In this document: positions 1-57,130 of the stretch, one piece after another | Layout: each line of letters starts with the position of its first letter | How positions within the stretch are numbered: the first letter of the stretch is position 1 | From: Delphinus delphis | Lineage: Eukaryota > Chordata > Mammalia > Artiodactyla > Delphinidae | Assembly (NCBI RefSeq): GCF_949987515.2 | Contig: NC_082692.2 | Coordinates: forward strand, 93,381,488-93,445,487 | DNA: 64,000 nt | Reading direction: 5' to 3' | Notes under the pieces: model-generated | What the model saw: the letters and a program-made list of their open reading frames with translations, nothing else | Databases searched by the model: none | Told to the model about the DNA's origin: nothing | Program-made: the position numbers and the translations under genes

Positions 1-1742
1 ACAATTAAAATGGACATTTTGATAGAGAAGCTAATTTTCCAAAAGTGTCCACAGGAAAAAATGTGTAATAAAAGCAGAATGATTTCTGTAGAAGAAACAG
101 AAAAATGTCAAGGTGATAACGCACAAAAAAGCATCAGGATAGTTTCACCTTGGGGTTCTACCAAACTGTTAAGGAATAGAAAATTATAATACTATTTAAA
201 CTGGTCTGGAGCATAGAAAAGAGTGATGAAAATTTTCCATTTTTTAAAAAAGTACAGAACTGTTATTAAAATTGGACACAGATTGTTGAGAAGGGAAAAC
301 ATATACTATAGATCACTAACCCCAATGCCAGCACCTATGCCTAAATAATTAATATTCATAAATAATAGTCACTATTAAGAGATTTTGTTATATTGGACCA
401 GATCAGTCATGATATAAAGAGAAAAATCATGATTTTCTTCATGTATGCTGAGAAAGCGTTTGATAAAATTCAACTTCCACTCAGAATAAGTACAAATAAT
501 AAACTTACATGAATTATTTCTTAAGTTGATAAAATATCATCTTAAGGAACAGCCCATCCCATAAGCCAGCATGATATTAAATGAAAAAACACTAGAAGAT
601 TATTTCCCACTGAAGTCAGCAGAAGTTGGTGTTAGGTATGTGCTATACTGTGTTTTATATTACATTAGAGGTACTAGCTAACATAATTGGATCAAGAACA
701 ATGTTAGAGATATAAAAATGTATAATGAGGAGATAAAATATCTTTATTATCAGATGATATGATTGTATACCCGGAAAATATAACAGAATTAACTGCTAGA
801 AATAATAATTCAGTAAGTTATTGGGTTGAAAGTATACACATTATCAGTAGTTTTCATATATTCAAATAAACTAGTTAGAAAATACATTTTTTTAAAAAAG
901 AGACTCTACTTCCATTTGTAACACAAAAGGTAAATTACCAAGGAATTAACCAGAAATGGACAAGATCTTTATGTAGAAAACATAAACAAATTAAAAGGCA
1001 ATCAGTACTCTTGAGCAGAAGGACTCAGTGTGGTAAAGATCTCAGCCCTCTCTCAGTTATTCTATATATTAGACATGCTCCGTTGTAAGAGGCCAGTAGG
1101 TGGGTTTTTGTCTTTGCGATCTGGACAAGGTGATATAAAGTTTATATTAAAAGATAAATAGCTTTGCCAGATATTAAAATGTACAATAAAGTTTCATAAT
1201 AAAAAGTATAATACATGTGAGCTGAAATATCAGTGAGATAGAATTTGATGTCTTGAAGTAGATGTATTTAAATATGGGACTAATATTTGAGGATAGCAAC
1301 TTCTCAAAGCATTCAGAAAAGCTGGACCATTAAGACGTGATCTCAGGACTACTGAGCAGACATCTAAGGGAAGAAAAAAAAAACTTGGATCCATGCTTCA
1401 TACACTGTGAAAAATTCCAATAGATCAAGGTTTTAAGTAGAAAAAATTTTATAAAATTGCTAGACAAAAACATGGGAGAATGTTTTTAAACCTCAGGATG
1501 AGATGGCTTTCCTAACATGAACTCAAAATCCAGAAGCCATACAATAAAAGAATGATAAAATTAGCTATATAAAAATAAAAATTAAATGAACTTAAGTTTC
1601 TCCTTTTTCTTTCTAAAAGATAATAACCAAAATAAAAAGATGATAAGCATAGAGTATTTTCAACACATGTTATAGACAAAGGGCTAGTATTACCAATATG
1701 TAAAGGAAGTTCAAAAATTTATAACGAAAAGACAATTCAATT

Positions 1743-1760
1743 AAAAAGAGCCAAAGTTTA
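1743..1760 (+). repeat. Target-site duplication, left copy, of the L1 at 1761-3297
   Basis: AAAAAGAGCCAAAGTTTA is repeated perfectly at 3298-3315. It marks the left end of a retrotransposition event into the older L1M. Confidence 0.95.
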
Positions 1761-3297
1761 CTCATTTTTTACAGAACTAGAACAAAAAACCTTAAAATTT
1801 ATGTGGAGACACAAAAGACCCCGAATAGCCAAAGCAGTCTTGAGGGGAAAAAACGGAGCTGGAGGAATCAAAGTCCCTGACTTCAGACTATACTACAAAG
1901 CTACAGTAATCAAGACAATATAGTACTGGCACCAAAACAGAAATATAGATCAATGGAACAGGATAGAAAGCCCAGAGATAAACCCACGCACCTATGGTCA
2001 ACTAATCTATGACAAAGGAGGCAAGGACATACAATGGAGAAAAGACAGTCTCTTCAGTAAGTGGTGCTGGGAAAACTGGACAGCTACATGTAAAAGAATG
2101 AAGTTAGAACACTCCCTAACACCATACACAAAAATAAACTCCAAATGGATTAGAGACCTAAATGTAAGACCAGACACTATAAAACTCTGAGAGGAAAACA
2201 TAGGAAGAACACTCTATGACATAAATCACAGCAAGATCTTTTTTGATCCACATCCTAGAGTAATGGAAATAAAAACAAAAATAAACAAATGGAACCTAAT
2301 GAAACTTAAAAGCTTTTGCAAAGCAAAGGAACTACAAACAGGATGAAAAAACAACCCTCAGAATGGGAGAAAATATTTGCAAATGAATCAGCGGACAAAG
2401 GGTTAATCTCCAAAACATATAAACAGCTCATGCAGCTCAATATGAAAAAAACAACCCAATCAAAAAATGGGCAGAAGACCTAAATAGATACTTCTCCAAA
2501 GAAGACATACTAATGGCCAAGAGGCACATGAAAAGCTGCTCGACATCACTAATTATTAGAGAAATGCAAATCAAAATTACAATGAGGTATCACCTCACAC
2601 CAGTTAGAATGGGCATCATCAGAAAATCTACAAACAACAAATGCTGGAGAGGGTGTGGAGAGAAGGGAACCCTCTTGCACTGTTGTTGGGAATGTCAATT
2701 GATACAGCCACTATGGAGAACAGTATGGAGGTTCCTTAAAAAACTAAAAATAGAACTACCGTATGACCCAGCAATCCCACTACTGGGCATATACCCAGAG
2801 AAAACCATAATTCAAAAAGACACATGCACCCCAATGTTCATTGCAGCACTATTTACAATAGCCAGGTCATGGAAGCAACCTAAATGCCCATCGACAGACA
2901 AATGGATGAAGAAGATGTGGTACCCATATACAATGGAATATTACTCAGCTCTAAAACGGAACGAATTTGGGTCATTTGTAGAGACATGGATGGATCTAGG
3001 GACTATCATACAGAGTGAAGTAAGTCAGAAAGAGAAAAACAAATATCGTATATTGATGCATATATGTGAAACCTAGAAAAATGGTACAGGTGAACTGGTT
3101 TGCAGGGCAGAAATAGAGATACAGATGTAGAGAAAAAACGTATGGCCACAAAGTGGGGAGAGTGGCGGGGGAGGGGTGTTGTTGTGATGAATTGGGAGTT
3201 TGGGATTGAGATATGTACATTTTATACACTAATATGTATATAATGGATAACTAATAACCTGCTGTATAAAAAAATAAAATTCAAAATAAAATAAAAT
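1761..3297 (+). mobile_element. Young 5'-truncated L1 insertion
   Basis: A 1.54-kb L1 that starts inside ORF2, downstream of the RT active site (reading ..[19 protein letters not shown].. near 1775-1830), and runs through the 3' UTR to an A-rich AATAAA-type tail at 3270-3297. It is flanked by a perfect 18-bp target duplication. Its 3' UTR (3077-3270) differs from that of the minus-strand L1 at 48.2 kb, so it belongs to another L1 lineage. Truncation at the 5' end is the usual outcome of target-primed reverse transcription. It is dead: no ORF1, no endonuclease, and stops within the ORF2 remnant. Confidence 0.95.
2513..3076 (+). pseudogene. L1 ORF2 C-terminal remnant
   Basis: Open frame of 187 codons matching the C-terminal end of the L1 ORF2 protein (endonuclease/reverse transcriptase). 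The cysteine-rich motif is visible as C-X3-C-X7-H-X4-C in [18 protein letters not shown], followed by the conserved [20 protein letters not shown] and [20 protein letters not shown] segments. The normal ORF2 stop is reached at 3074-3076. RT and endonuclease domains are absent because of the 5' truncation, so this is not a functional gene. The initiating Met is an internal residue, not a true start. Confidence 0.9.
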
Positions 3298-23156: not shown

Positions 23157-23690
23157 AAGTGTATGTGGTTACCGAGCACTTGAAATGTGGCTGGTCTGAA
23201 TTGATATAGGCTGCAAGTGTCAAATACACACTAGAACTTGAAGACTCAGAATGAGAGAGTAATGGAAAAATAGCTTATTTTTAGTTGATTGTGTATTGAA
23301 ATCATAAGAGTCTGGATAGATTGGGCTCAATAAAAGACAATATTACACTTAATTTCATGTTTCTTTTTGGCTTCTTCAGAATGTGACTACTAGAAAATTA
23401 AGATTATATGAATGTAAAATAGATAGCTAGTGGGAAGCGGCAGCATAGCACAGGGAGGTCAGCTCGGTGCTTGGCGATGACCTAGAGGGGTGGGATAGGG
23501 AGGGTGGGAGGCAGACACAAGAGGGACGGGTGTGGGGACACATGTATACATATGGCTGATTCACGTTGGTGGACAAACAGAAACTAACACAGTTTTGTGA
23601 AGCAATTATACTCCAATAAAGATCTATTGAAAAAAAGATTACATGTGTGTCTTGCATTATATTTCCATTGGATAACCCTAGTCTAGGACA
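23157..23690 (+). mobile_element. hAT/Charlie-type element, split by an L1 3' end
   Basis: GAGCACTTGAAATGTGGCTG, then a GATTGTGTATTGAAATCATA and ATGTGACTACTAGAAAATTA series, continuing after the L1 with GTGTCTTGCATTATATTTCC. These blocks are typical of a widespread mammalian hAT-type repeat. The two halves, 23157-23410 and 23635-23690, are colinear. Confidence 0.6.
23400..23645 (+). mobile_element. L1 3' end, 5'-truncated insertion
   Basis: 23411-23634 equals the last 220 bp of the cetartiodactyl L1 3' UTR (AATAGATAGCTAGTGGGAAG, GACCTAGAGGGGTGGGATAG, CAATTATACTCCAATAAAGA). Target duplication AAGATTATATG (23400-23410) / AAGATTACATG (23635-23645), one mismatch. Same 3' UTR type as the full-length L1 at 48.2 kb. 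Confidence 0.92.
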
Positions 23691-34063: not shown

Positions 34064-34395
34064 GGCTTCCCTCGTGGCACAGCGGTGAAGAAATCTGCCT
34101 GCCAACGCAGCGGACACGGGTTTGAGCCCTGGTCCGGGATGATCCCACATGCCACAGAGCAAGTAAGCCTGTGCGCCACAACTACTGAGCCTGCGCTCTA
34201 GAGCTCGTGAGCCACAACTCCTGAGCCCTTGTTCCTAGAGCCCGTGCTTTGCAACAAGAGAAGCCACTGCAATGAGAAGCCTGCACACCTCAACAAAGAG
34301 TAGCCCCCGCTCACCGCAGCTAGAGGAAGCCCACACGCAGCAATGAAGATGCAATGCAGCCAAAAATAAAATACATAAAAAAAAAAAAAAAAAGA
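34064..34395 (+). mobile_element. CHR-type SINE, long (ancestral) form
   Basis: Starts GGGCTTCCCTCGTGGCACAG and, unlike the short copies, keeps the tail with GCGCTCTAGAGCTCGTGAGC, GAGAAGCCACTGCAATGAGA, AGAGTAGCCCCCGCTCACCG and CAGCAATGAAGATGCAATGC, then poly-A at 34377-34394. More diverged than the short copies, so older. Confidence 0.93.
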
Positions 34396-34506
34396 AACTG
34401 ACTGACTGTTAGTTTAGTTTGCACCTCACTGTGTTGTTCTCAAGGATTAACAAGAAAGGCTGGTCACCACCCACCCGTCACTCCCCCCACCACCCATATA
34501 TCCACA

Positions 34507-34618
34507 CATGTGAGCACACAACACACACACACACACACAACACACACACACAACACACACACACAACACACACACACACACACACACACAATCTCTCTCT
34601 CTCCCTCCCTCCCTCTTT
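34507..34618 (+). repeat. Compound (CA)n / (AACACA)n / (TC)n microsatellite
   Basis: CA runs punctuated by regular extra A residues (AACACACACACACA periodicity at 34537-34568), then (CTCT)n and (CCCT)n. Confidence 0.95.
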
Positions 34619-38189: not shown

Positions 38190-38930
38190 CCAGGGCTGCT
38201 TTCCACTAGAAAATCAATAACTAAGAGAGGGGCAGATGTTGGTAAAAGGAAAATTGCTTTAATCGTAATGCCGGCAACCTGGAGAGATGGTGGACTCAGT
38301 GTCCGCAGAAACCAATTCCAAAGATTCTGCTTGTCCGTGAAAGTTTTTAAAGGGAAAAGGGGAAGTAATCCCAGTTAATCTTTGAGATAGGGGGTCAGAG
38401 TCTTTGCCATTCCCTACTGTGTGCAGGTTTGTCAACTTCCTGTGACCTTTCTTTAGTTGCTATCTTGTTCACACAGTTTGTTCATGAGATTACTGAAGGG
38501 TAAGAGATCTGGTCATTTGTTAATTACTTATTCTTCGTTTCTACTTCTTTGATCTGCAGAAAGAACCAACAGCAAGGTATTGTGTGATCAAAAGATTTGA
38601 AAGGTGTGCTGGGCCAGAGATGAATAGAGAATGGGGGCGCCTGATTTAAAAGTTAGTTACAATGTAGCTTTGCTAAATTGACAAAACAAAAGGGGTTTCC
38701 TGTGGAGGGCAGTTTCCTGTGGAGGGCAGTTTCCTGTGGAGGGCAGTTTCCTGTGGAGGGCGGTTTCCTGCAAAGAGCTGCTTACAGTAATATTTTTGTT
38801 GATTTTATTTGATGCTTAGACATTAATGTGCATTATTTGGCTGTTTATATCAGGTTATGAAAATTATGAAAATTACAAAAACACAAAGTTCTAGGTGGGA
38901 GAATCTTAACTGTGACCCCCCTAGGAAGGG
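38190..38930 (-). mobile_element. Possible endogenous-retrovirus LTR, family unassigned
   Basis: The region (GGGTCAGAGTCTTTGCCATT, CCTGTGACCTTTCTTTAGTT, a VNTR, then an AT-rich end) resembles an artiodactyl ERV LTR read in reverse. No TG..CA ends or target duplication could be fixed, so this is tentative. Confidence 0.3.
38696..38775 (+). repeat. 17-bp minisatellite, 4.5 copies
   Basis: Unit TTTCCTGTGGAGGGCAG at 38696, 38713, 38730 and 38747 (the last has one A-to-G change), then a partial TTTCCTG. The first three units are identical. Confidence 0.97.
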
Positions 38931-43997: not shown

Positions 43998-44846
43998 GGT
44001 CTGCATGCTGTTCCTCGCTCTGCACCCTTTAATTCTGCTATCGGCAATTTTGGAGGAATGTGACATCTGTCATTTCCAAAACTGCTTTCCTTTTACTCTC
44101 ACCATTAACAGATTTGGTTTGGTTTGTTTATTTATTTATTTTTTAGTTTCTTACCAGGACACAAATAATCAAGTTTCCCAAAGGATTACACATACATTGC
44201 TAGAGTTTGTGAGATGTGTTTAGATACATTGAATGTTTTTAGTTTTAAGCGTTGTACCTTTTAATTTGTATAAGGATAAAACTATAGCACATATCAGAAA
44301 GAGTAAAGTTTTAAAAATACAAATTAAAGAAAAGTAATAGGAAATTAATAGTACATACGCTATGTGGACAAGGTAAAAAAAAAAAATGCAGTGGTCCTAT
44401 AGTTTTGGAAATGTCCATTTTGTTCCTGGCTGCCGCAACACGCTGACAACAGAGGTTGCTGCTATCTGGTGTTGCCAGGTCATCCCTCTTTGTTGCAGCT
44501 CAAGTTGTAGCATCCTTGGTCGTTGCATTGCTCGTGGTCCATTGCTCACTCCCGTTTCATTTCCCATGAAATGAAAGCAACCTACTCAATTAAGTCAGGG
44601 CAGTGTTAGTTGAGCAACCTACTCAATTAAGTCAGGGCAGTGTTAGAAAAAGCAATGTCTTGTGCTCTTCAACTGTCTAATTTCATAATAATAACAACTC
44701 TATGCTATTGGTAGCATTATTCATAGTTTATAGACCTGGAAACTAAGGCTTAGTGAAATAAATAACTCGAAATGTGTCGCAGAAGGTGGATGACAGAGAA
44801 AACTTGAATCTCTCTGACGTTAATAGACCCTCTCTTTGTCCTATAT
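43998..44846. other. Unique stretch with a tandem duplication
   Basis: No gene. Contains the 37-bp-period duplication at 44576-44646. Confidence 0.4.
44576..44646 (+). repeat. 34-bp direct tandem duplication, period 37
   Basis: 44576-44609 and 44613-44646 are identical (starting AGCAACCTACTCAATTAAGT), separated by TTG. Confidence 0.97.
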
Positions 44847-44999: not shown

Positions 45000-46010
45000 A
45001 AACCCACAGTCATTTTGAAATAATAGCACGATAAACACCCTTCCCTTCAACTAAAGCTATCAGTTATTAATATTTTGCCCTATTAATCTCCATTCCTCAT
45101 TCCCTTCCATCATCTTGTCTTTGGTATGCGTACACATACACACTTATTTACCTCTTTTATTTTCCTAGTCCATTTGGAAGTAAGCGATAAACATGATGAC
45201 ACTTTACTCTTAAATCTGCAACATGTGCTGACCTGGAAAAAACATTCTCCTCCATAACCACAATATCATTATTACACCCAAGATATCTAATATTGATGAA
45301 ATAACATACTTATTTTGTGTATTATATATTGTTCACATACAAACTTCCCCAATGTTTCAAAAATATACTTCATTGCTTTTATAAAAATCAGGTTTCAGTT
45401 AAGGATTCCACACTGCATTTGAGTTTCACGACTCTTTAGTCTCCATTAGTCAAGAATACAGGTTGGCCAACTATAGCCCAGAGTCCAAATCTGGTTTACT
45501 ACTTGGTTGTCTATGACCTGCAAGGTAAGAATGGATTTTACATTTTTACATGGTAGAAAAAAAATCAAAAAAAAAAATAATACCCTGTGAATTATTTAAA
45601 ATCAAATTTCAGGGTCTATAAATAAAGTTGTAATGATATGGCCACATTCATATGTTTACGTATTGTCCATGAATGCTTTTAGGGCTACAAGAGCAAAATT
45701 GAGCAGCTGTAACAGAGGTCATCTGGCAAAGCCTAAAATATTTACTATTTGGGCTTCTACAGAAGAAGTTTTTGACCCTGATGTAGAACATTCCACTCAC
45801 TTAAAGGAAATATTTTCATGACTTCGATATTTTAAAGAATCCAAGCTAGCTTTGTAGTCGAATCTCCCACAACCCGGAATTGTTTTATCATTTTTAGATT
45901 CAGATCAAACATTTTGGCAACAGTTGAAATTGGTGATGTTATACATGTTTCCCTCCATCATGTCAGGGGTCACACAATGTTGGTGTGTTTCTCTGTTCTT
46001 TTGTTTAGAC
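45000..46010 (-). mobile_element. Old L1M fragment, split by a hAT MITE
   Basis: 45000-45449 (CCTAGTCCATTTGGAAGTAA, CTCCTCCATAACCACAATAT, CACACTGCATTTGAGTTTCA) and 45795-46010 (ACTTCGATATTTTAAAGAAT, GATTCAGATCAAACATTTTG) match consecutive parts of an L1M 3' region read in reverse. Confidence 0.75.
45450..45793 (-). mobile_element. hAT-type MITE, long version
   Basis: CAGGTTGGCCAACTATAGCC to GAAGAAGTTTTTGACCCTG, with ATGATATGGCCACATTCATA and AGCCTAAAATATTTACTATT inside. Same family as the copies at 15.9 and 17.3 kb but with an extra central AT-rich section (45525-45620). Confidence 0.8.
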
Positions 46011-46865
46011 GTCTTCTATTGGCATTACTACAGTCTATAGATCATTTCCTCTGCAATATCTAAATGTGCGGTTACAGCTATCTATTGAAATATTAATTTT
46101 CAATATATTTTTTAATTTCAGAATTTTATTTAATTCTAGAATTTTATTTTCTTAAATTCCACTCCCCTGGTTTAATTTTCTATCACTTTATTTAATTTGC
46201 CACAGTTTTATTTTTTAAAATATTCTGGCATGCATAGTAATTTTTGATTAAATGTTTTTCATTTTATCAAAAACAATTGTAGAGGCTCCAGATGAAAAGT
46301 TCTTTCAGAAAACAATTATCTATACTGTTCAGATAGAGTAGAAGACACTAGTTCTATCAGGAACTGAGTTGAGTTGAGGCTTGGTGGTAGTTTTTGTAAA
46401 CATGTGTGAGGTGATAGTCTGCCTGTATAGGTGATAATGTACAGTTGCTTGGATAGACAAACAGGGGTTTTGTTTTAGGGTCAATTCTGAAGCCTGCCCT
46501 TAAATCTGCTCTCTTTCAAGCTGCATAAAGGGCTCACAGTGATGACTGGACATGGGCCATATACATTTTAATTTTAGCTGGGCTACTTGGAATATTTATA
46601 AACTTCTTAAGGCTCTCTAGAGGGGTTAATTTATCTTCTGTTATTTTCCAGAAAAGTGTTATTATAGACATTTTTGCGCCCAAGATTGAGTAATTTAAAA
46701 TGGGCTCATTTCAGGATTAGGCCAGACAACCAGGTAGCACTGGTAGATCATTTGCATGTATAGTGGTTGTTCAAATAGATATATGGAACCTGGTCATTGT
46801 GCTTCGTTTTCAATTCTAGATTATTGATTTTTTTCCCCAATGTGAGATTTTATACAAGTATCACT
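46011..46865. other. AT-rich stretch, no gene seen
   Basis: 46080-46230 is a run of decayed AATTTTATTT repeats. The rest is unrecognised, possibly further L1M. Confidence 0.4.
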
Positions 46866-47337
46866 TGTTTTGTGTTTGGTTATTTTATTTTTTTAATAAA
46901 CTTTAGTATTTAGAAAAGTTATAGATTTATAGAAAAAAATGTGAAAATAGTTCAGAGTGTTCCTGTAAATCCCACACCCAGCTTCCCCTGTTATTAACAC
47001 TTTACATTAGTTAGGTATGTTGTTTTTATAATTAATGGATGATATTGATATATTAATTAAAGCCCATGTTGGATGCATACATCCTGCAGTGTTGTTGCTT
47101 CTCGGTCCTCACAGATGACAGAGCAAGGAATATATGGTATATCCTAATTCACTCTGTCTGTCTGTCTGTTTATCTGTCTATCTACTTATCTACCTACCTA
47201 TACCTACACACATATATAAATATTTCTACATGTAACCATCTCTGTCTCTATTAAGCTAAACATGAATCCATACTGATGTCTCCAATTCTAATCTATTACC
47301 ACATGGATCATTCTTGTCTCCTCCTCTACTTATCTTT
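46866..47337 (-). mobile_element. Old L1M, right-hand (3') portion before the large insertion
   Basis: AGTTATAGATTTATAGAAAA, GTTCCTGTAAATCCCACACC and ATGTCTCCAATTCTAATCTA belong to an L1M 3' UTR in reverse. It continues at 55197 after the 7.8-kb insertion. A (TCTG)n/(CTAC)n tract lies at 47154-47206. Confidence 0.75.
47321..47337 (+). repeat. Target-site duplication, left copy, of the 7.8-kb composite L1 insertion
   Basis: CTCCTCTACTTATCTTT here and CTCCCCTACTTATCTTT at 55180-55196: 16 of 17 identical, with a perfect 12-bp core (CTACTTATCTTT). On the L1 sense strand the nick site reads ATTT/AAAG, close to the L1 endonuclease preference TTTT/AA. Confidence 0.85.
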
Positions 47338-47349
47338 TTTTTTTCTTCT

Positions 47350-47905
47350 GCAGTGATATAAAGTCAGCCTTATTGACATAAAATTTACATTCAGTAAAAT
47401 TCGCTCTTTTAGTGAACCCTTTGAGTTTTGACAAATGCATGCAGTAGAATAAATACCATCATAATCAGGATATAGAAGATTTTCATCGTCCCAAGAAGTC
47501 CCCTCCTACCTCTGTAGTCAATCCCTTGTCTCATCCCCAGACTCTGAAACTATTTACTTATTTTACGTCCTTGTAGTTTTGCCGTTCCCAAAATGTCATA
47601 TAAATGGAATCATAGAGTATTTTTTCATTGGAGTCTGGCTTCTTTCACTTAGGATGTTGTATTTGAGATTCATCCATGTTGTTGCCTGTATGAAGTAGTT
47701 TGTTCCTTCGTATTGCTCAGTAGCATTTCATTGAATGGATGTACCACAGTTTGTTTATTCATTTCAAGGACATTTGTGTTGTTTCCAGTTTTGGGGAGTT
47801 ACAAATAAAGCTACTTTAAACATGTACAGGTGTTTGTGAGAACACTTTTCATTTCTCTAGGAGTGTGATTGATGGGTCCAATGGTAAGAGTGGCGTATTT
47901 TAATT
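47350..47905 (-). mobile_element. Older L1M 3' end inside the transduced segment
   Basis: TTATTGACATAAAATTTACA, AATGTCATATAAATGGAATC and GATTCATCCATGTTGTTGCC, the standard L1M 3' series in reverse. Confidence 0.75.
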
Positions 47906-48190
47906 TTTATTTATTTATTTTTTAATGTATTTATTTGTTTATTTATTGGCTGCATTGGGGCTTCATTGCTGCACGCAGGCTTTCTCTACTTGTGGCATGT
48001 GGGGGCAGTAGTGGGATTGCGGGGTCATACGGTAGTTCTATTTTTAGATTATTAAGGAACCTCCACACTGTTCTCCATAGTGGCTGTATCAATTTACATT
48101 CCCACCAGCAGTGCAAGAGGGTTCCCTTTGCTCCACACCCTCTCCAGCATTTGTTGTTTGTAGATTTTGTTTGTTTGTTTGTTAAAGGTT
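47905..48190 (-). mobile_element. Chimeric L1 ORF2 / CHR SINE fragment
   Basis: On the minus strand an internal ORF2 fragment ([18 protein letters not shown] to [10 protein letters not shown], 48009-48165) is fused directly to the 3' end of a long-form CHR SINE (47938-48008, GCAGCAATGAAGCCCCAATG on the sense strand) with its AATAAA-rich tail. Consistent with template switching during reverse transcription. Confidence 0.7.
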
Positions 48191-48587
48191 TCCCATGAGT
48201 TCTTTGTTTTATTTTTATTTTTTTAAACATATTTATTGCAGTATAACTGCTTTACAGTGGTGTGTTAGTTTCTGCTTTATAACAAAGTGAATCAGCTATA
48301 TGTATACATATATCCCCATATCTCCTCCCTCTTGTGTGTCCCTCCCACCCTCCCTATCCCACCCCTCTAGGTGGTCACAAAGCACTGAGCTGATCTTCCT
48401 ATGCTATGTGGCTGCTTCCCACTAGCTATCTATTTTACATTTGGTAGTGTATATATGTCCATGCCACTCTCTCACTTTGTCCCAGCTTACCCTTCCCCCT
48501 CCCCGTGTCCTCAAGTCCATTCTCTACGTCTGTGTCTTTATTCCTGTGCTGCTCCTAGGTTCTTCAGAACCAATTTTTTTTTTTTTT

Positions 48588-51500
48588 TTAGATTCCATAT
48601 ATATTTGTTAGCATACGGTATTTGTTTTTCTCTTTCTGACTTACTTCACTCTGTATGACAGACCCTAGGTCCATCCACCTCACTACAAATAACTCAGTTT
48701 TATTTCTTTTTATAGCTGAATAATATTCCATTGTATATATGTGCCACATCTTCTTTATCCATTCATCTGTTGATGGACACTTAGGTTGCTTCCATGTCCT
48801 GGCTATTGTAAATAGAGCTGCAATGAACATTGTGGTACATGACTCTTTTGGAATTATGGTTTTCTCTGGGTATATGCCCAGTGGTGGTATTGCTGGGTCG
48901 TATGGTAATTCTATTTTTAGTGTTTTAAGGAACCTCCATACTGTTCTCCATAGTGGCTGTATTAATTTCAGTTCCCATCAACAGTGCAAGAGGGTTCCCT
49001 TTTCTCCACACCCTCTCCAGCATTTATTGTTTCTAGACTTTTTTGATGATGGCCATTCTGACTGGTGTGAGATGATATCTCATTGTAGTTTTGATTTGCA
49101 TTTCTCTAATGATTAGTGATGTTGAGCATCCTTTCATGTATTTGTTGGCAATCTGTATATCTCCTTTGGAGAAATGTCTATTTAGGTCTTCTGCCCATTT
49201 TTGGATTGGGTTGTTTGTTTTTTTGATATTGAGCTGCATGAGCTGTTGTATATTTTGGAAATTACTCCTTTGGCAGTTGCTTCTTTTGCAAATATTTTCT
49301 CCCATTCTGAGGGTTGTCTTTTCGTCTTGTTTATGCTTTCCTTTGCTGTGCAAAAGCTTTTAAGTTTCATTTTAAGTCCCATTTGTTTATTTTTATTTCC
49401 ATTTCTCTTGGAGGTGGGTCAAAAAGGATCTTGCTGTGATTTATGTCATGGAGTGTTCTGCTTATATTTTCCTCTAAGAGTTTTATACTGTCTGGCCTTA
49501 CCTTTACGTCTTTAATTCATTTTGAGTTTATTTTTCTGTATGGTATTAGGGAGTGTTCTGATTTCATTATTTTACATGTAGCTGTCCAGGTTTCCCAGCA
49601 CCACTTATTGAAGAGGCTGTCTTGTCTCCATTGTATATTCTTGCCTTCTTTATCAGAGATAAGCTGACAATATATGCATGGGTTTATCTCTGGGCTTTCT
49701 ATCCTATTCCATTGATCTATATTTCTGTTTTGGTGCTAGTACCATATTGTCTTCATTACTGTAACTTTGTGGTATAGTCTGAAGTCAGGGATCCTGATTC
49801 CTCCAGCTCTGTTTTTCTTTCTCAAGATTGCTTTGGCTATTCGGGGTCTTTTGTGTTTCCATACAAATTGTAAATTTTTTTGTTCTAGTTCTGTGATAAA
49901 TGCCATTGGTAGCTTGTTAGGGATTGCATTGAATCTGTTGGTATTGTCTTTAATTTCCTTCACTAGTGTCTTATAGTTTTCTGCATATAGGTCTTTTGTC
50001 TCCTTAGGTAGCTTTATTCCTAGGTATTTTATTTTTTTTTGTTGTATTGGTAAATGGGAGTGCTTCCTTAATTTCTCCTCCAGATTTTTCGTCGTTAGTG
50101 TATAGGAATGAAAGAGATTTCTGTGCATTAATTTTGTATCCTGCTACTTTACCAAATTCAAAGATTAGCTCTAGTAGTATTCTGGTAGCATCTTTAGGAT
50201 TCTCTATGTATAGTATCATGTCATCTGCAAACAGTGATAGCTTTACTTCTTCTTTTCTGATTTGGATTCCTTTTATTTCCTTTTCTTCTCTGATTGCTGT
50301 GGCTAAAACTTCCAAAACTATGTTGAATAATAGTGGTGAGTGCGGGCAACCTTGTCTTGTTCAAGATTTTAGAGGAAATGCTTTCAGTTTTTCACCATTG
50401 AGAATGATGTTTGCTGTGGGTTTGTCATATATGGTCTTTATTATGTTGTGGTGGGTTCCCTCTATGCCCACTTTCTGGAGAACTTTTATCATAAATGGGT
50501 GTTGAATTTTGTCGAAAGCTTTTTCTGCTTCTGTTGAGATGGTCATATGGTTTTATCCTTCGATTTGTTAACGTGGTGTATCACATTGATTGATTTGCAT
50601 ATATTGAAGAATCCTTGTTTTCCTGGGATAAACCCCACTCAATCATGGTGTATGATCCTTTTAATGTGTTGTTGGATTCTGTTTGCTAGTATTTTGTTCA
50701 GGATTTTTGCATCTATGTTCATCAGTGATATTGGCCTGTAGTTTTCTTTCTTTGTGACATCCTTGTCTGGTTTTGGTATCAGGGTGACGGTGGCCTTGTA
50801 GAATGAGTTTGGGAGTGTTCCTCCCTCTCCTATATTTTATATGAGTTTCAGAAGGACAGGTGTTATCTGTTCTCTGAATGTTTAATAGAATTCGCCTGTG
50901 GAGTCATCTGGTCCTGAGCTTTTGTTTGTTGGAAGATTTTTAATCACAGTCTGAATTTCATTGCTTGTGATTGGTCTGTTTATAGCTTCTATTTCTTCCT
51001 GGTTCAGTCTCGGAAGGTTGTGCTTTTCTAAGAATTTGTCCGTGTCTTCCAGGTTGTCCATTTTATTGGCATATAGCTGCTTGTAGTATTCTCTCATGAT
51101 CCTTTGTATTTCTGCAGTGTCAGTTGTTACTTCTCCTTTTTCATTTCTAATTCTACTGATTTGAGTCTTCTCCTTTTTTTTTCTTGATGAATCTGGCTAA
51201 TGGTTTATCAATTTTGTTTATCTTCTCAAAGAGCCAGCTTTTAGCTTTATTGATCTTTGCTATCGTTTCTTCATTTCTTTTTCATTTATTTCTGATCTGA
51301 TCTTTATGATTTCTTTCCTTTTGCTAACTTTGGGTTTTTTTGGTTCTTTGTCTCCTTGCTTTAGGTGTAATGTTAGGTTGTTTATCTGAGCCATTTCTTG
51401 TTTCTTGAGGTAGGATTGTATTGCTCTAAACTTCCCTCTTAGTACTGCTTTTGCTGCATCCCATAAGTTTGGGGTCATCGTGTTTTCATTGTCATTTGTT

Positions 51501-52277
51501 TCTAGGTATTTTTTGATTTTCTCTTTGATTTCTTCAGTGATATCTTAGTTATTTAGTAGTGTATTGTTTAGCCTCCATGTGTTTGTATTTTTTACAGATT
51601 TTTTCCTGTAATTGATGTCTAGTCTCATAGCATTGTGGTCAGAAAAGATAGTTGATATGAATTCAATTTTCTTAAATTTACCAAGGCTTCATTTGTGACC
51701 CAAGACATGATCTATCCTGGAGAATGTTCCATGAGCACTTGAGAAGATAGTGTATTCTGTTGTTTTTGGATGGAATGTCCTATAAATATCAGTTAAGTCC
51801 ATCTGATCTAATGTGTCATTTAAAGCTTGTGAAAGTGGGGTATTAAAGTCCCCTACTATGATTGTGTTACTGTCAATTTCCCCTTTTATGGCTGTTAGTA
51901 TTTGCCTTATGTATTGAGGTGCTCCTATGTTGGGTGCATAAATATTTACAGTTGTTATATCTTCTTGGATTGATCCCTTGATCATTATGTAGTGTCCTTC
52001 TTTGTCTCTTGTAACAGTCTTTATTTTAAAGTCTTATTTTGTCTGATATGAGAGCTGCTACTCCAGCTTTCTTTTGATTTCCATTTGCATGGAATATCTT
52101 TTTCCATCCCCTCACTTTCAGTCGATATATGTCCCTAGGTCTGAAGTGGATCTCTTGTAGACAGCATATATATGGGTTTTGTTTCTGTATCCATTCAGCC
52201 AGTCTCTGTCTTTTGGTTGGAGCATTTAATCCATTTAAATTTAAGGCAGTTATTGAAGTGTATGTTCCTATTCCCAT
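48588..52277 (-). pseudogene. L1 ORF2 pseudogene (endonuclease/reverse transcriptase)
   Basis: Start Met at 52277 (MGIGTYTSITALNLNGLNAP). The apurinic endonuclease domain occupies about 52277-51680: the LNLNGLNAP Asn, CLQEIHF Glu, VGDFNTPLS Asp/Asn and SRIDHVLGHK Asp/His sites are still legible. The reverse transcriptase has [11 protein letters not shown] near 50890 and the catalytic [13 protein letters not shown] near 50235. The C-terminal part includes [20 protein letters not shown] and ends MLTNIYGI at 48588. The frame changes at least six times (between 52026 and 51985, about 50880 and 50546, about 50128, 49382, 49353 and 48830), so the protein is not made. Full length would be about 1,230 residues, near the normal family size. 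Confidence 0.95.
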
Positions 52278-53222
52278 TTTCTTAATTGATTTGGGTTTGT
52301 TTCTGTAGGTCTTTTCCTTCTCTTGTGTTTCCTGACTAGAGTAGTTTCCTTTAGCATTTGTTGTAAAGCTGGTTTGGTGGTGCTGAATTCCCTTAACTTT
52401 TGCACGTCTGTAAAGGTTTTAATTTCTCCATTGAATCTGAGTGAAATCATTGCTGGGTAGAGTAATCTTTGTTGTAGGTTTTTCCCTGTCATCACTTTAA
52501 GTATGTTCTGCCACTCCCTTCTGGTTTTCAGAGTTTCTGCTGAAAGATCAGCTGTTAACCTTATGGGGATTCCCTTGTATGTTATTTGTTGCTTTTCCCT
52601 TGCTGCTTTTAATATTTTTTCTTTGTATTTAGTTTTTGATAGTTTGATTTATATGCGTCTTGGTGTGTTTCTCCTTGGATTTATCCTGTATGGACCTCTC
52701 TGTGCTTCCTGGAATTGACTGACTCTTTCCTTTCCCATTTTAGGGATGTTTTCGACTATAATCTCTTCAAATATTTTCTCAGACCCTTCCTTTTTCTCTT
52801 CTTCTTCTGGGACCCCTATAGTTTGAATGTTGGTTCATTTAATATTGTCCCAGCAGTCTCTGAGACTGTCCTCAATTTTCATTCTTTTTTCTTTATTCTT
52901 CTCTGCACCAGTTATTTCCACTATTTCATCTTCCAGGTCACTTATCCCTTCTTCTGCCTCAGTTATTCTGCTATTGATTCCTTCTAGAGTATTTTTAATT
53001 TCATTTATTATGGTGTTCATCACTGTTTGTTTGCTCTTTAGCTCTTCTAGTTCCTTGTTAAATGTTTCTTGTATTTTCTCCATTCTATTTCCAAGATTTT
53101 AGATCATCTTTACTATCATTACTCTGAATTCCTTTTCAGGTAGACTGCCTATCTCCTCTTCATTTGTTTGGTCTGGTTGGACCTTGCTCCTTCATCTGAT
53201 ACATATTTCTCTGTCTTCTCAT
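52268..53222 (-). pseudogene. L1 ORF1 pseudogene (RNA-binding protein)
   Basis: The likely ancestral start is at 53222 (reads MRRQRNMYQMKEQGPTRPNK, then stop). A frameshift leads into a coiled-coil region at 53083-52835 (IQETFNKELEELKSKQTVMN, SRITEAEEGISDLEDEIVEI), the trimerisation part of ORF1p. The C-terminal domain is readable at 52495-52370 (LLYPAMISLRFNGEIKTFTD, REFSTTKPALQQMLKE). The usual stop just after ..KEL is shifted out of frame, so the frame runs to 52268 and overlaps the ORF2 start. Not functional. Confidence 0.9.
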
Positions 53223-55179
53223 TTTGTTTAACTTTCTGTGTTTGGGGTCTCCTTTTCACAGACTGCATGTTCGTAGTTCCCATTGTTTCTTGTGTCTGCC
53301 TGCAGTGGCTAAGGTTGGTTCAGTGGGTTGTGTAGGCTTCCTGGTGGAGGGGATTGGTGCCTGTGTTCTAGTGTGTTGGGCAGAATCTTGTCCTTCTGGT
53401 GGGCAGGGCCGCGTCCGGTGGTGTGTTTTGGAGTGTCTGTGAACTTAGTATGACTTTAGGCAGCCCCTCTGCTAATGGGTGGGGTTGTGTTCCTGTCTTG
53501 CTAGTTCTTTGGCATGGGGCATCCAGCACTGTAGCTTGCTGGCTGTTGGCTGGAGTTGGGTCTTCGTGTTGAGATGGAGATCTCTGAGAGACCTCTTGCT
53601 GATTGATATTATGTGGGGCTGGGAGGTCTCTGGTGGTCCAATGTCCTGGACTTGGCTTTTCCACCTCAGAGTCTCAGGCCCAACATCCGGACAGAACACC
53701 AAGACCCTGCTAGCCACACAGCTCAGAAGAAAAGGAAGGGAAAAAAAAGGAACAGATAGAACCCCAATCCAAATTGTTAAAGCAGAATGGAACAGATAAA
53801 ATGACACAAAGGAACATAGACACTCACAAAAAGAGAAAAAAGGAATAAATAAATAAATAATTGTTTTTATAAAAGGAAGAGAGCAGCCAAACCAATAAAT
53901 AAATCCACCAATGATAACAAGCACTAAAAGCTAAACTAAGATAAACATAAAACCAAAAACAAATCAGACTCAGAGAGCAAACTCCAGGTCTCCAGTTGCT
54001 CCCGATGTCCACCACCTCAATTTTGGGAATATTCTGGTCTATTCAGGTATTTCACAGATGCAGGGTTTATCAAGTTGATTGTGGGGATTTAATCTGTTGC
54101 TTCTGAGACTGCATGGAGAAGTTTCCCTTTCTCTTCTTTGTTCTCACAGCTCCTGGAGTTCAGCTTTGGTTTTGGCCCTACCTCTGCATGTAGGCTGCCC
54201 TCAGGTGTCTGTTCCCCATCCAGACAGGAGCGGGTTAAAGCAGCAGCTGATTAGAGCTCACTCAGGCTGGGGAGAGGGAGGGATACTGTAGACATAATTG
54301 GAATGAGCGAGCCTGTGGCGGCAGAGGCTGGCATGATGTTGCAACACCCTGAGGAGTGCCGTGTGTTTTCCTTCAGAAGTTGTCCCTGGATCGTGGGACT
54401 CTGGCAGCAGCATTCTGCACAGGCTCTGGGGCAGAGGTGTGGATAGTGACCTGTGCTTGCACACAGGCCTCTTGGTGGCAGCGGCTGCAGCATTAGTGGT
54501 TCATGCCTGTCTCTGGGGTCCGAGCTGATAGCTGCAGCTCACGCTCATCTCTGGAGCTCGTTTAGGCAGTGTTCTGAATGCCCTCTCCACGCGCATCCCG
54601 AAACAATGTTCTCTTGCCTCTCTGGCAAGTTTGGACTTTTTCCCAGACTCCCTCCTGGCTAGCTGTGGTGCACTAGCCCCCTGCAGGCTGTGCTCACACA
54701 GCCAACCCCAGTCCTCTCCCTGGGATCTGACCTCTGAAGCCCGAGCCTCAGCTCCCAACCTCCACCTGCCCCGGCAGGTGAGTGCTGGTCGGCACCGATC
54801 CTCTGTGCGGGAAGCTCTCCGCTTTGCCCTCTGCACCCCTGTTGCTGTGCTCTCCTCCGCAGCTCCGAAGCTTCCCCCCTTCACCACCTGCAGTGTCTGC
54901 CCGCGAAGGGGCTTCCTAGTGTGTGGAAAGCTTTCCTCCTTCACAGCTCCCTCCCACTGGTGCAGGTCCCGTCCCTATTCTTTGTCTCTGTTTTTTCTTT
55001 TTTCTTTTGCCCTACCCCGGTACGTGGGGAGTTTCTTGCCTTTTGGGAAGTCTGTGGTTTTCTTGCCAGCGTTCAGTAGGTGTTCTGTAGGAGCTGTTCC
55101 ACATGTAGATGTATTTTTGATGTGTTTTTGGGGAGGAAGGTGATCTCCACGTCTTACTCCTCCGCCATCTTGAAGGTCT
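53223..55179 (-). promoter_or_regulatory. L1 5' UTR / internal promoter region
   Basis: About 1.95 kb upstream of ORF1, GC-rich toward its 5' end. L1 5' UTRs carry an internal promoter and often an antisense promoter. The 5' terminal AAGATGGCGGAGGAG contains a YY1-like AAGATGGCGG site (55161-55172 on the minus strand). Activity is unknown. Confidence 0.7.
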
Positions 55180-55196
55180 CTCCCCTACTTATCTTT
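55180..55196 (+). repeat. Target-site duplication, right copy
   Basis: CTCCCCTACTTATCTTT, partner of 47321-47337; it abuts the L1 5' end exactly. Confidence 0.85.
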
Positions 55197-56035
55197 AAAT
55201 CCCAACCCCAGTAGTGAGAAACCTGGCTCTCACCATCTGCCATACATTTACTTAATTGTTCAATTCCAGTTGACATATATGGCAGTTTCAGAACTGTCAA
55301 ACCATACCCACGTGTGCTATCACTTTATCAACTAGAGTATAGTGCTTTTGAACAGTTTCTTTTGCATTTAATCTTACAGAGTTTACTCACTTCCAAAGTT
55401 AATTAGGCCATCATTTTTTCTTCCACTTCCTTCATCAAACTTGTTTTATATTTTTAGAATACAATCAGTTTGTTTTGTTATATTCAGCTTTCCACCTTAG
55501 GATTCCCCCCAGTCTCCTAAATGACTTCTAAAAATTTGCATATATTAAAGGTCATACTTTGTGTTGTACAGATCTATGGGTTTTTGACAAATGCATGATG
55601 TTACGTGTACACAATTAGAATATCAAAAAATCTTCACTGCTCTAAAAGATTAAGTGTGCTTCACCTATTTCACCCTTCCTTTCCTCCATCCAATGTCTTG
55701 GCAACCATTGATCTCTATATTATCTCTACGGTTTTGCCTTTTCCAGAATATCATATAATGGAAATCATACAGCCTTTCCAGACTGCTTTCTTTCACTTAG
55801 CAATATGCATTTGAGATTCATCTTCTTTTCATGGCTTGATAGCTAATTCCTTTTTACTGCAGAATAATATTACATTGTATCAATATACCTGAGTTTGCTT
55901 ATCCATTTACCTGTTTAAGGACATGTTGCTTGTTCACTGTTTGTGGTGATTGTGAATAAGGTCTTTATAAATGATTGTGTGCAGGATCTTTGTGGACTTA
56001 AGTTTTCACGTCATTTGCGCAAATAGCATCACTTG
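55197..56035 (-). mobile_element. Old L1M, continuation
   Basis: CCCAGTAGTGAGAAACCTGG, GGTTTTGCCTTTTCCAGAAT, CAATATGCATTTGAGATTCA and TTGTGTGCAGGATCTTTGTG, in order. It continues the L1M at 46866-47337 across the young insertion. Confidence 0.85.
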
Positions 56036-56084
56036 CTTTTCTTTCATATATCCAATATCCACCTTCTGCCAAAGCTTGCTAATT

Positions 56085-56260
56085 TTCCTTTTTATTGACT
56101 GAGTGTTGTATTATGAGAGGGTACTGGTCTTACTTCTGGTGTACAGTGGTAAGCCCAAGTATCTATTGTACCTGACTTATGGAGCACAGTCTAGTGAGGG
56201 ACACATATTTTAGCAGATTAATCACACAAATAAATTAAAAATTGCAACTGTACCATCTTA
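56085..56260 (-). mobile_element. L2 LINE 3' fragment, diverged
   Basis: TTTTTATTGACTGAGTGTTG and GGAGCACAGTCTAGTGAGGG in reverse L2 order. Confidence 0.5.
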
Positions 56261-56949
56261 ACCAAACAAAGTTAATATCACCAATAACTGGACAAATCAA
56301 TTTCATGTGTCTCCTGATACAGTATACTGGGAAGGGAAAACATTGGTTCTTTGGTATTTTGGCAAAAATTAAATAACTGAAATGTGACCATAACGGACAT
56401 TAGAGAAACTTAAACTGAAGGTTATTTTACAAAATAACTGGTTTGTATTCTTAAAAAACATCAAGGTCACAATAGACAAAGACAAACTGAGGAATTATTC
56501 CAGATCAAAGGAGACAAAAACATTTGACAACTAAGTGTGATATGTGATCCTGGGTTGGACTTCAAATCAGAATTTTTTTTCCTATAAAAAGGAAATTATC
56601 AGGAAATTGGATTGGTGAGGTATGAATAAAGTCTATAGATAATGGTATTATGTTCGTGTCAATTTCATAACTAACTTTTAACTGTGGTATGTAAGGAAAG
56701 GTCTCAGGAAGCACACAGGTATTTAGGAGTAAAGTGGCATCATGTTTGCAAGTTAAATGTGTTATAAAAAGAAAAAATAACATGCATGTATGCATAGAAA
56801 ATTATAAGAGATGTGGAAAGCTTTAACATATAAAAGTCTACACAAATGAATAAAAATCACAAATGCAGTTACATTCTGAGAATGAGACAAATGTGATGCT
56901 TTGATAGAAAAATAGAAGGATTAGGTGAATAAGGGGAAGGGAGAACATT
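56261..56949. other. AT-rich unique stretch, no gene seen
   Basis: Nothing recognised. Confidence 0.4.
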
Positions 56950-57130
56950 TAAATCAGTATCAGTCAACAAATAATTATTGCACACTCACCATGTCCCAGG
57001 GACTGGCTCTGGGTGATGGCAGGATGATAGACATGAGGAAAAACAGAGTTTCTGTCCTCAAGGAGTTTTCATGGTAGAGGGACATTAAACAATCTCAAAT
57101 AAATTATGAAGATAATTTCAGGAAGACCTG
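56950..57130 (-). mobile_element. L2 LINE 3' fragment
   Basis: CAACAAATAATTATTGCACA, ACCATGTCCCAGGGACTGGC and GTCCTCAAGGAGTTTTCATG, reverse L2 order. Confidence 0.75.

Follow-up and report, generated by a model that had tools for sequence, protein, structure and literature searches.

In L1 3' transductions of the human germline and of cancers, an L1 and its downstream flank are inserted as one unit, which is ended by a downstream signal located 10-30 bp before the cleavage site (PMC13009371, PMC9311842; these and the papers below are cited from partial texts). In the portions available, transcription is described as running past weak L1 signals up to a downstream motif (PMC9311842), and as stopped 10-30 bp beyond a canonical signal or a variant of it (PMC13009371). 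The table of hot human sources in PMC13009371 comprises eight L1s, one of them without a mode; the modal transduction is 818 and 671 bp in 2 of the 7 sources with a stated mode, and the other visible modes are 37-85 bp. About 15% of full-length human L1s have transductions (cited in PMC12458276). The dog provides a non-primate case, in which some of the transducing LINE-1 are full-length and the flanks are traceable (PMC13103737, PMC12458276). According to the portion of PMC12458276 available, mappable transductions accompany about 1.8% of dog L1 insertions, and 12 of the 27 cases in one comparison were at least 6 kb. The uniqueness rule applied there drops about 40% of the eligible candidates (PMC12458276), so that repeat-rich flanks like the one described below are probably under-counted. 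A third related system is that of LINE-1 chimeras with SINEs or small RNAs (PMC13174262).

Here we describe, on the minus strand of a cetacean window (the whole 64-kb stretch of DNA that was analysed), a unit made of an L1 (55184-48225, 6,960 bp) and of downstream DNA (48206-47345, 862 bp), both enclosed within a single target-site duplication (TSD). We consider it very likely that the whole unit is an L1 3' transduction, i.e. a single insertion of the L1 and its 862-bp 3' flank, and at that level of confidence the locus documents such an event in a cetacean. Among the listings of open-licence papers we found no survey of L1 3' transductions in cetaceans, which is no proof that none exists. 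The 3' transduction itself is a known kind of event. What is new here is the repeat make-up of the carried segment and an AATAAG near the tail, probably the decayed signal of an older L1.

As in the human cases, the L1 and its downstream flank form one insertion, and the 862 bp compare with the modes of 818 and 671 bp of two of the seven hot sources (PMC13009371, partial text). The initial annotation had called such an event uncommon. It is indeed a minority outcome (about 1.8% in dog, and 37-85 bp for most human modes), but one that is well recorded, as the two long modes testify. The locus differs from the human transductions in that the copy is broken and its flank, mostly made of repeats, seems to finish at the 3' end of an ancient L1. 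This last feature is the notable one, and it provides a concrete case in which the signal of a far more ancient L1 seems to have terminated a read-through RNA. With respect to the dog, whose pipelines need at least 25 unmasked bases, the 38-bp stretch of the present flank might or might not pass (PMC13103737, PMC12458276, partial texts).

The order and orientation of the parts were read directly from the sequence. Following the minus strand, the features are listed below, each with the evidence in brackets.

55197..56012, minus strand: host flank on the 5' side, an old L1 (alignment over 55511-56012, presumed for the remainder)
55185..55196, minus strand: 5' copy of the TSD, perfect 12-bp core; the 17-bp version, 55180-55196, has 1 mismatch (sequence search of the window)
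48225..55184, minus strand: L1 body, broken, apparently full-length (sequence, reading-frame pieces, Pfam)
52835..53098, minus strand: ORF1 piece, L1 trimerisation domain (Pfam, E 5e-4, 20.7 bits, below the cut-off of 22.2)
52268..52648, minus strand: ORF1 piece, RBD-like and dsRBD-like domains (Pfam; LINE-1 ORF1p chains in PDB)
51689..52418, minus strand: ORF2 endonuclease (Exo_endo_phos), two broken pieces, 52418-52026 and 52033-51689 (Pfam)
50004..50360, minus strand: ORF2 reverse transcriptase piece, RVT_1 (Pfam; LINE-1 ORF2 protein chains in PDB)
48232..48237, minus strand: the L1's own AATAAA, 7 nt ahead of the A-rich tract (sequence)
48207..48224, minus strand: internal A-rich tract (A7 T A5 T A4), presumed tail of the source L1 (sequence)
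48169..48206, minus strand: carried flank, 38 bp outside assigned repeats, which would hold the 3' TSD of the source L1 (sequence)
48006..48168, minus strand: L1 ORF2 fragment (94.5% identity to the L1 at 2623-2785, 87% to the ORF2 of this L1 itself)
47899..48005, minus strand: SINE 3' part including an A-rich tail and joined to the ORF2 fragment (alignment to the SINE end at 34303-34397, 73% identity in 97 columns; the limit at 47899 is approximate)
47361..47898, minus strand: old-L1 3' end, oriented like the main L1 (alignment to the host old L1; outer boundaries approximate)
47369..47374, minus strand: AATAAG, putative signal of the old L1, presumably decayed from AATAAA (sequence)
47345..47360, minus strand: final 16 bp of the carried flank, outside assigned repeats (sequence)
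47335..47344, minus strand: terminal A10 tail, its last 3 A common to the TSD (sequence)
47326..47337, minus strand: 3' copy of the TSD (sequence search of the window)

The TSD core reads AAAGATAAGTAG on the minus strand. It is present at 55196-55185 and 47337-47326, and nowhere else in the 64 kb on either strand. Both copies announced by the initial annotation, which had reported a duplication of 16 out of 17 bp with a perfect 12-bp core around the unit, were thus recovered. In its 17-bp form the duplication has 1 mismatch, against 3 for the next-best site of the window. The last five bases of the 17-mer fit the first bases of the L1 equally well. The L1 therefore starts at 55184 with a 12-bp TSD or at 55179 with a 17-bp TSD, and 12 bp is the safe figure. 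The T10 tract previously placed at the outer edge is also there, as a minus-strand A10 (47344-47335) joining the carried DNA to the far TSD copy. The host was cut at ATTT/AAAG (CTTT/AAAT on the plus strand), an endonuclease-like site resembling the TT/AAAA preference. That preference is known from humans and rodents and, in the partial text of PMC10531181, is noted as not explicitly studied in whales. The features of the window that fit a transduction are the outer TSD, the terminal A-tail, this endonuclease-like site, the A-rich tract that closes the L1 itself, a signal-like hexamer and a carried old-L1 piece sharing no more than 63% identity with the old L1 of the host. The earlier proposal that the L1 and about 870 bp of flank had moved together is partly supported, by the outer TSD and the terminal A10, and the carried length is refined to 862 bp.

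To identify the L1, 10 of the 21 listed minus-strand reading-frame pieces were scanned against Pfam. Matches were obtained in 5 of the 10 (L1 ORF1 trimerisation, L1 RBD-like with dsRBD-like, Exo_endo_phos twice, and RVT_1), and the 5 remaining scanned pieces had no Pfam match. The domains succeed one another along the minus strand as in L1, with 2 ORF1 pieces, 2 endonuclease pieces and 1 reverse transcriptase piece. In PDB, 1 ORF1 piece and 1 reverse transcriptase piece matched LINE-1 ORF1p and ORF2p chains, respectively. The coding regions are split among several frames, so that this L1 copy is most likely no longer active. Within the 64-kb window its 5' part was found only once, and its 5' completeness rests on the TSD and on its first bases, which we take to resemble known L1 starts.

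At the other extremity, the L1 body ends at 48225, where the minus strand reads GCAATAAATATGTTT, and is followed by the A-rich tract, 48224-48207. An L1 3' UTR piece at 23411-23635 (84%), followed by an A7 run, served to place this 3' end. The window contains another L1 3' part, on the plus strand (1700-3219), which shares about 83-84% identity with the long L1; the match ends at 3219 and this element may belong to another subfamily.

The 862 bp of carried DNA (48206-47345), comprised between the internal A-tract and the terminal A10, are mostly repeats. We take the SINE 3' part to be a CHR SINE, and the old L1 3' end is presumably an L1M, its last bases seemingly resembling the usual L1M end. 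Near its end, this old-L1 piece reads CAATAAGGCTGACTTT. Elsewhere in the window, a SINE-like stretch with an A-tail is found at 34100-34397, ahead of a CA microsatellite located at 34515-34591. The carried old L1 could be aligned with the one of the host flank: its positions 47855-47362 are colinear with 56012-55511 of the host element, and 47368-47824 is 63% identical to 55516-55973 (482 columns). With such an identity, the carried piece and the host's old L1 are separate copies. A local duplication of the host L1, as a possible origin of the carried piece, is rejected in view of the 63% identity. The stretch 48165-48205 was also compared with the host old L1 and gave no evidence of further old L1, its score of 12.2 being close to the shuffled mean of 11.6 and reached or exceeded by 98 of 300 shuffles. 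Because the carried segment is mostly repeats, it makes a poorer tag for tracing the source than first thought, the distinctive parts being the junctions and about 54 bases (38 + 16).

Within the carried segment, at 48005/48006, the internal L1 ORF2 fragment is joined to the SINE 3' part in the same orientation. This L1-ORF2-SINE fusion recalls the LINE-1 chimeras with SINEs or small RNAs, from which it differs by the SINE end being on the 3' side, by the L1 part being internal to ORF2 and by the TSD search having found none for it (PMC13174262, partial text). That search gave A-rich matches only, the best of 10 bp, so that the fusion may just as well stem from two insertions between which a deletion occurred later as from a chimeric insertion. 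The fusion could also have reached its place after the transduction: the flank that moved would then have measured only about 590 bp, and the fusion of ORF2 fragment and SINE would have been inserted later at the present site. The fragment does look young, since over 163 aligned positions it has 6 unique bases against 13 for the main L1 (2 for the L1 at 2.6 kb, with 1 site at which all three differ). Yet the main L1 may diverge more through subfamily membership and not through age, and no TSD surrounds the fusion besides the A-rich matches mentioned above. We regard this late arrival as unlikely. With the fragment already present at the source, the transduction would be no older than the fragment. 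The ORF2 pieces were also compared by codon position. The differences at positions 1, 2 and 3 were 10, 9 and 22 (of 107 each) in the first piece, 17, 14 and 23 (of 130 each) in the second and 20, 17 and 19 (of 76 each) in the third, counts that are ambiguous for dating.

The hexamer AATAAG lies 24 nt ahead of the terminal A-tail and is one base off the canonical hexamer AATAAA, which we take to be the signal of the old L1M element. Its proximity to the A-tail, at the old-L1 3' end, makes the older L1's signal the probable end point of the RNA; the 24 nt fall inside the 10-30 bp range given in the partial text of PMC13009371. A point against this reading is the hexamer itself: AATAAG instead of AATAAA implies a signal that was weak or has since decayed.

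The transduction could have proceeded as follows. At the source locus, the L1 would have stood upstream of a short L1-ORF2/SINE fusion and of an old-L1 3' end, all in the same orientation. Transcription from this source L1 would have run past its own AATAAA, and the transcript would have ended about 24 nt beyond the older L1's signal. The polyadenylated RNA would then have been inserted by target-primed reverse transcription at the endonuclease-like site CTTT/AAAT (plus strand), generating a 12-17 bp duplication around the L1 and its 862 bp, after which the inserted copy would have decayed. One may speculate further that L1 lineages here habitually end their read-through RNAs at old-L1 3' ends, which would serve as spare terminators, and that the composite (L1, ORF2/SINE fusion and old-L1 tail) was copied more than once into a small composite family; we give this extension very little credence.

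An identical structure within the window, internal A-tract included, is predicted if the unit is a 3' chimera. Reverse transcription would have begun on an unrelated polyadenylated SINE/old-L1 RNA and switched to the tail of the L1 RNA, or the two RNAs would have been ligated first. L1 is known to join other RNAs via template switching or ligation, but the U6 chimeras described carry the foreign RNA at the L1 5' end, and here it is on the 3' side (PMC13174262, partial text). Moreover, the internal tract is broken by two T, against a pure terminal A10, which fits, weakly, an older genomic tail. Read-through is a commoner route than template switching or ligation. Altogether, we hold a 3' chimera to be improbable.

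The transduction was also confronted with separate nested insertions, in which the L1 alone would have landed beside an older insertion of an old-L1 3' end and the outer duplication would stem from the latter. The carried segment indeed seems to finish with an old-L1 3' end and its signal, shortly ahead of an A-run. The TSD, however, adjoins the L1 start, and the final 30 bp of 5' flank share no match of at least 6 bp with the 3' end of the L1 itself (48225 and its A-rich tract), in agreement with the earlier statement that no target duplication lies at the end of the L1 body. In addition, an element only 63% identical to its sister copy is hardly expected to have kept a perfect 12-bp TSD and a pure A10. 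Nested insertions therefore appear highly improbable.

The length of the TSD match was controlled in several ways. Among the 126 runs of at least 6 A in the window, the observed match of 12 is to be compared with 7 or less for the other 125. When all 35-mers on both strands were considered, matches outside the two sites did not exceed 8. In pairs generated from a first-order Markov model, a match of at least 12 arose in 3 of 300,000. A cruder control gave a match of 12 in 49 of 200,000 random placements, a count to be read knowing that the real site had been left in and is by itself expected to yield about 53. A coincidental 12-bp match with the segment being plain host sequence, which the AT-richness of the region and the presence of old L1 in both the carried and host segments might suggest, is practically negligible given the Markov pairs and the 35-mers, and given that the carried piece repeats the old-L1 stretch of host 55511-56012, as one uninterrupted host L1 would not.

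Some observations concern the surroundings of the unit. The left flank of the unit had no other match in the window except simple repeats, and Rfam gave 0 matches on 46000-57000 with E values up to 0.1. Two tandem repeats lie further off: a 17-bp minisatellite at 38695-38770 (4.5 copies, 98% matches), and a 37-bp unit repeated 1.9 times at 44576-44646, whose 100% matches suggest that the tandem duplication is recent.
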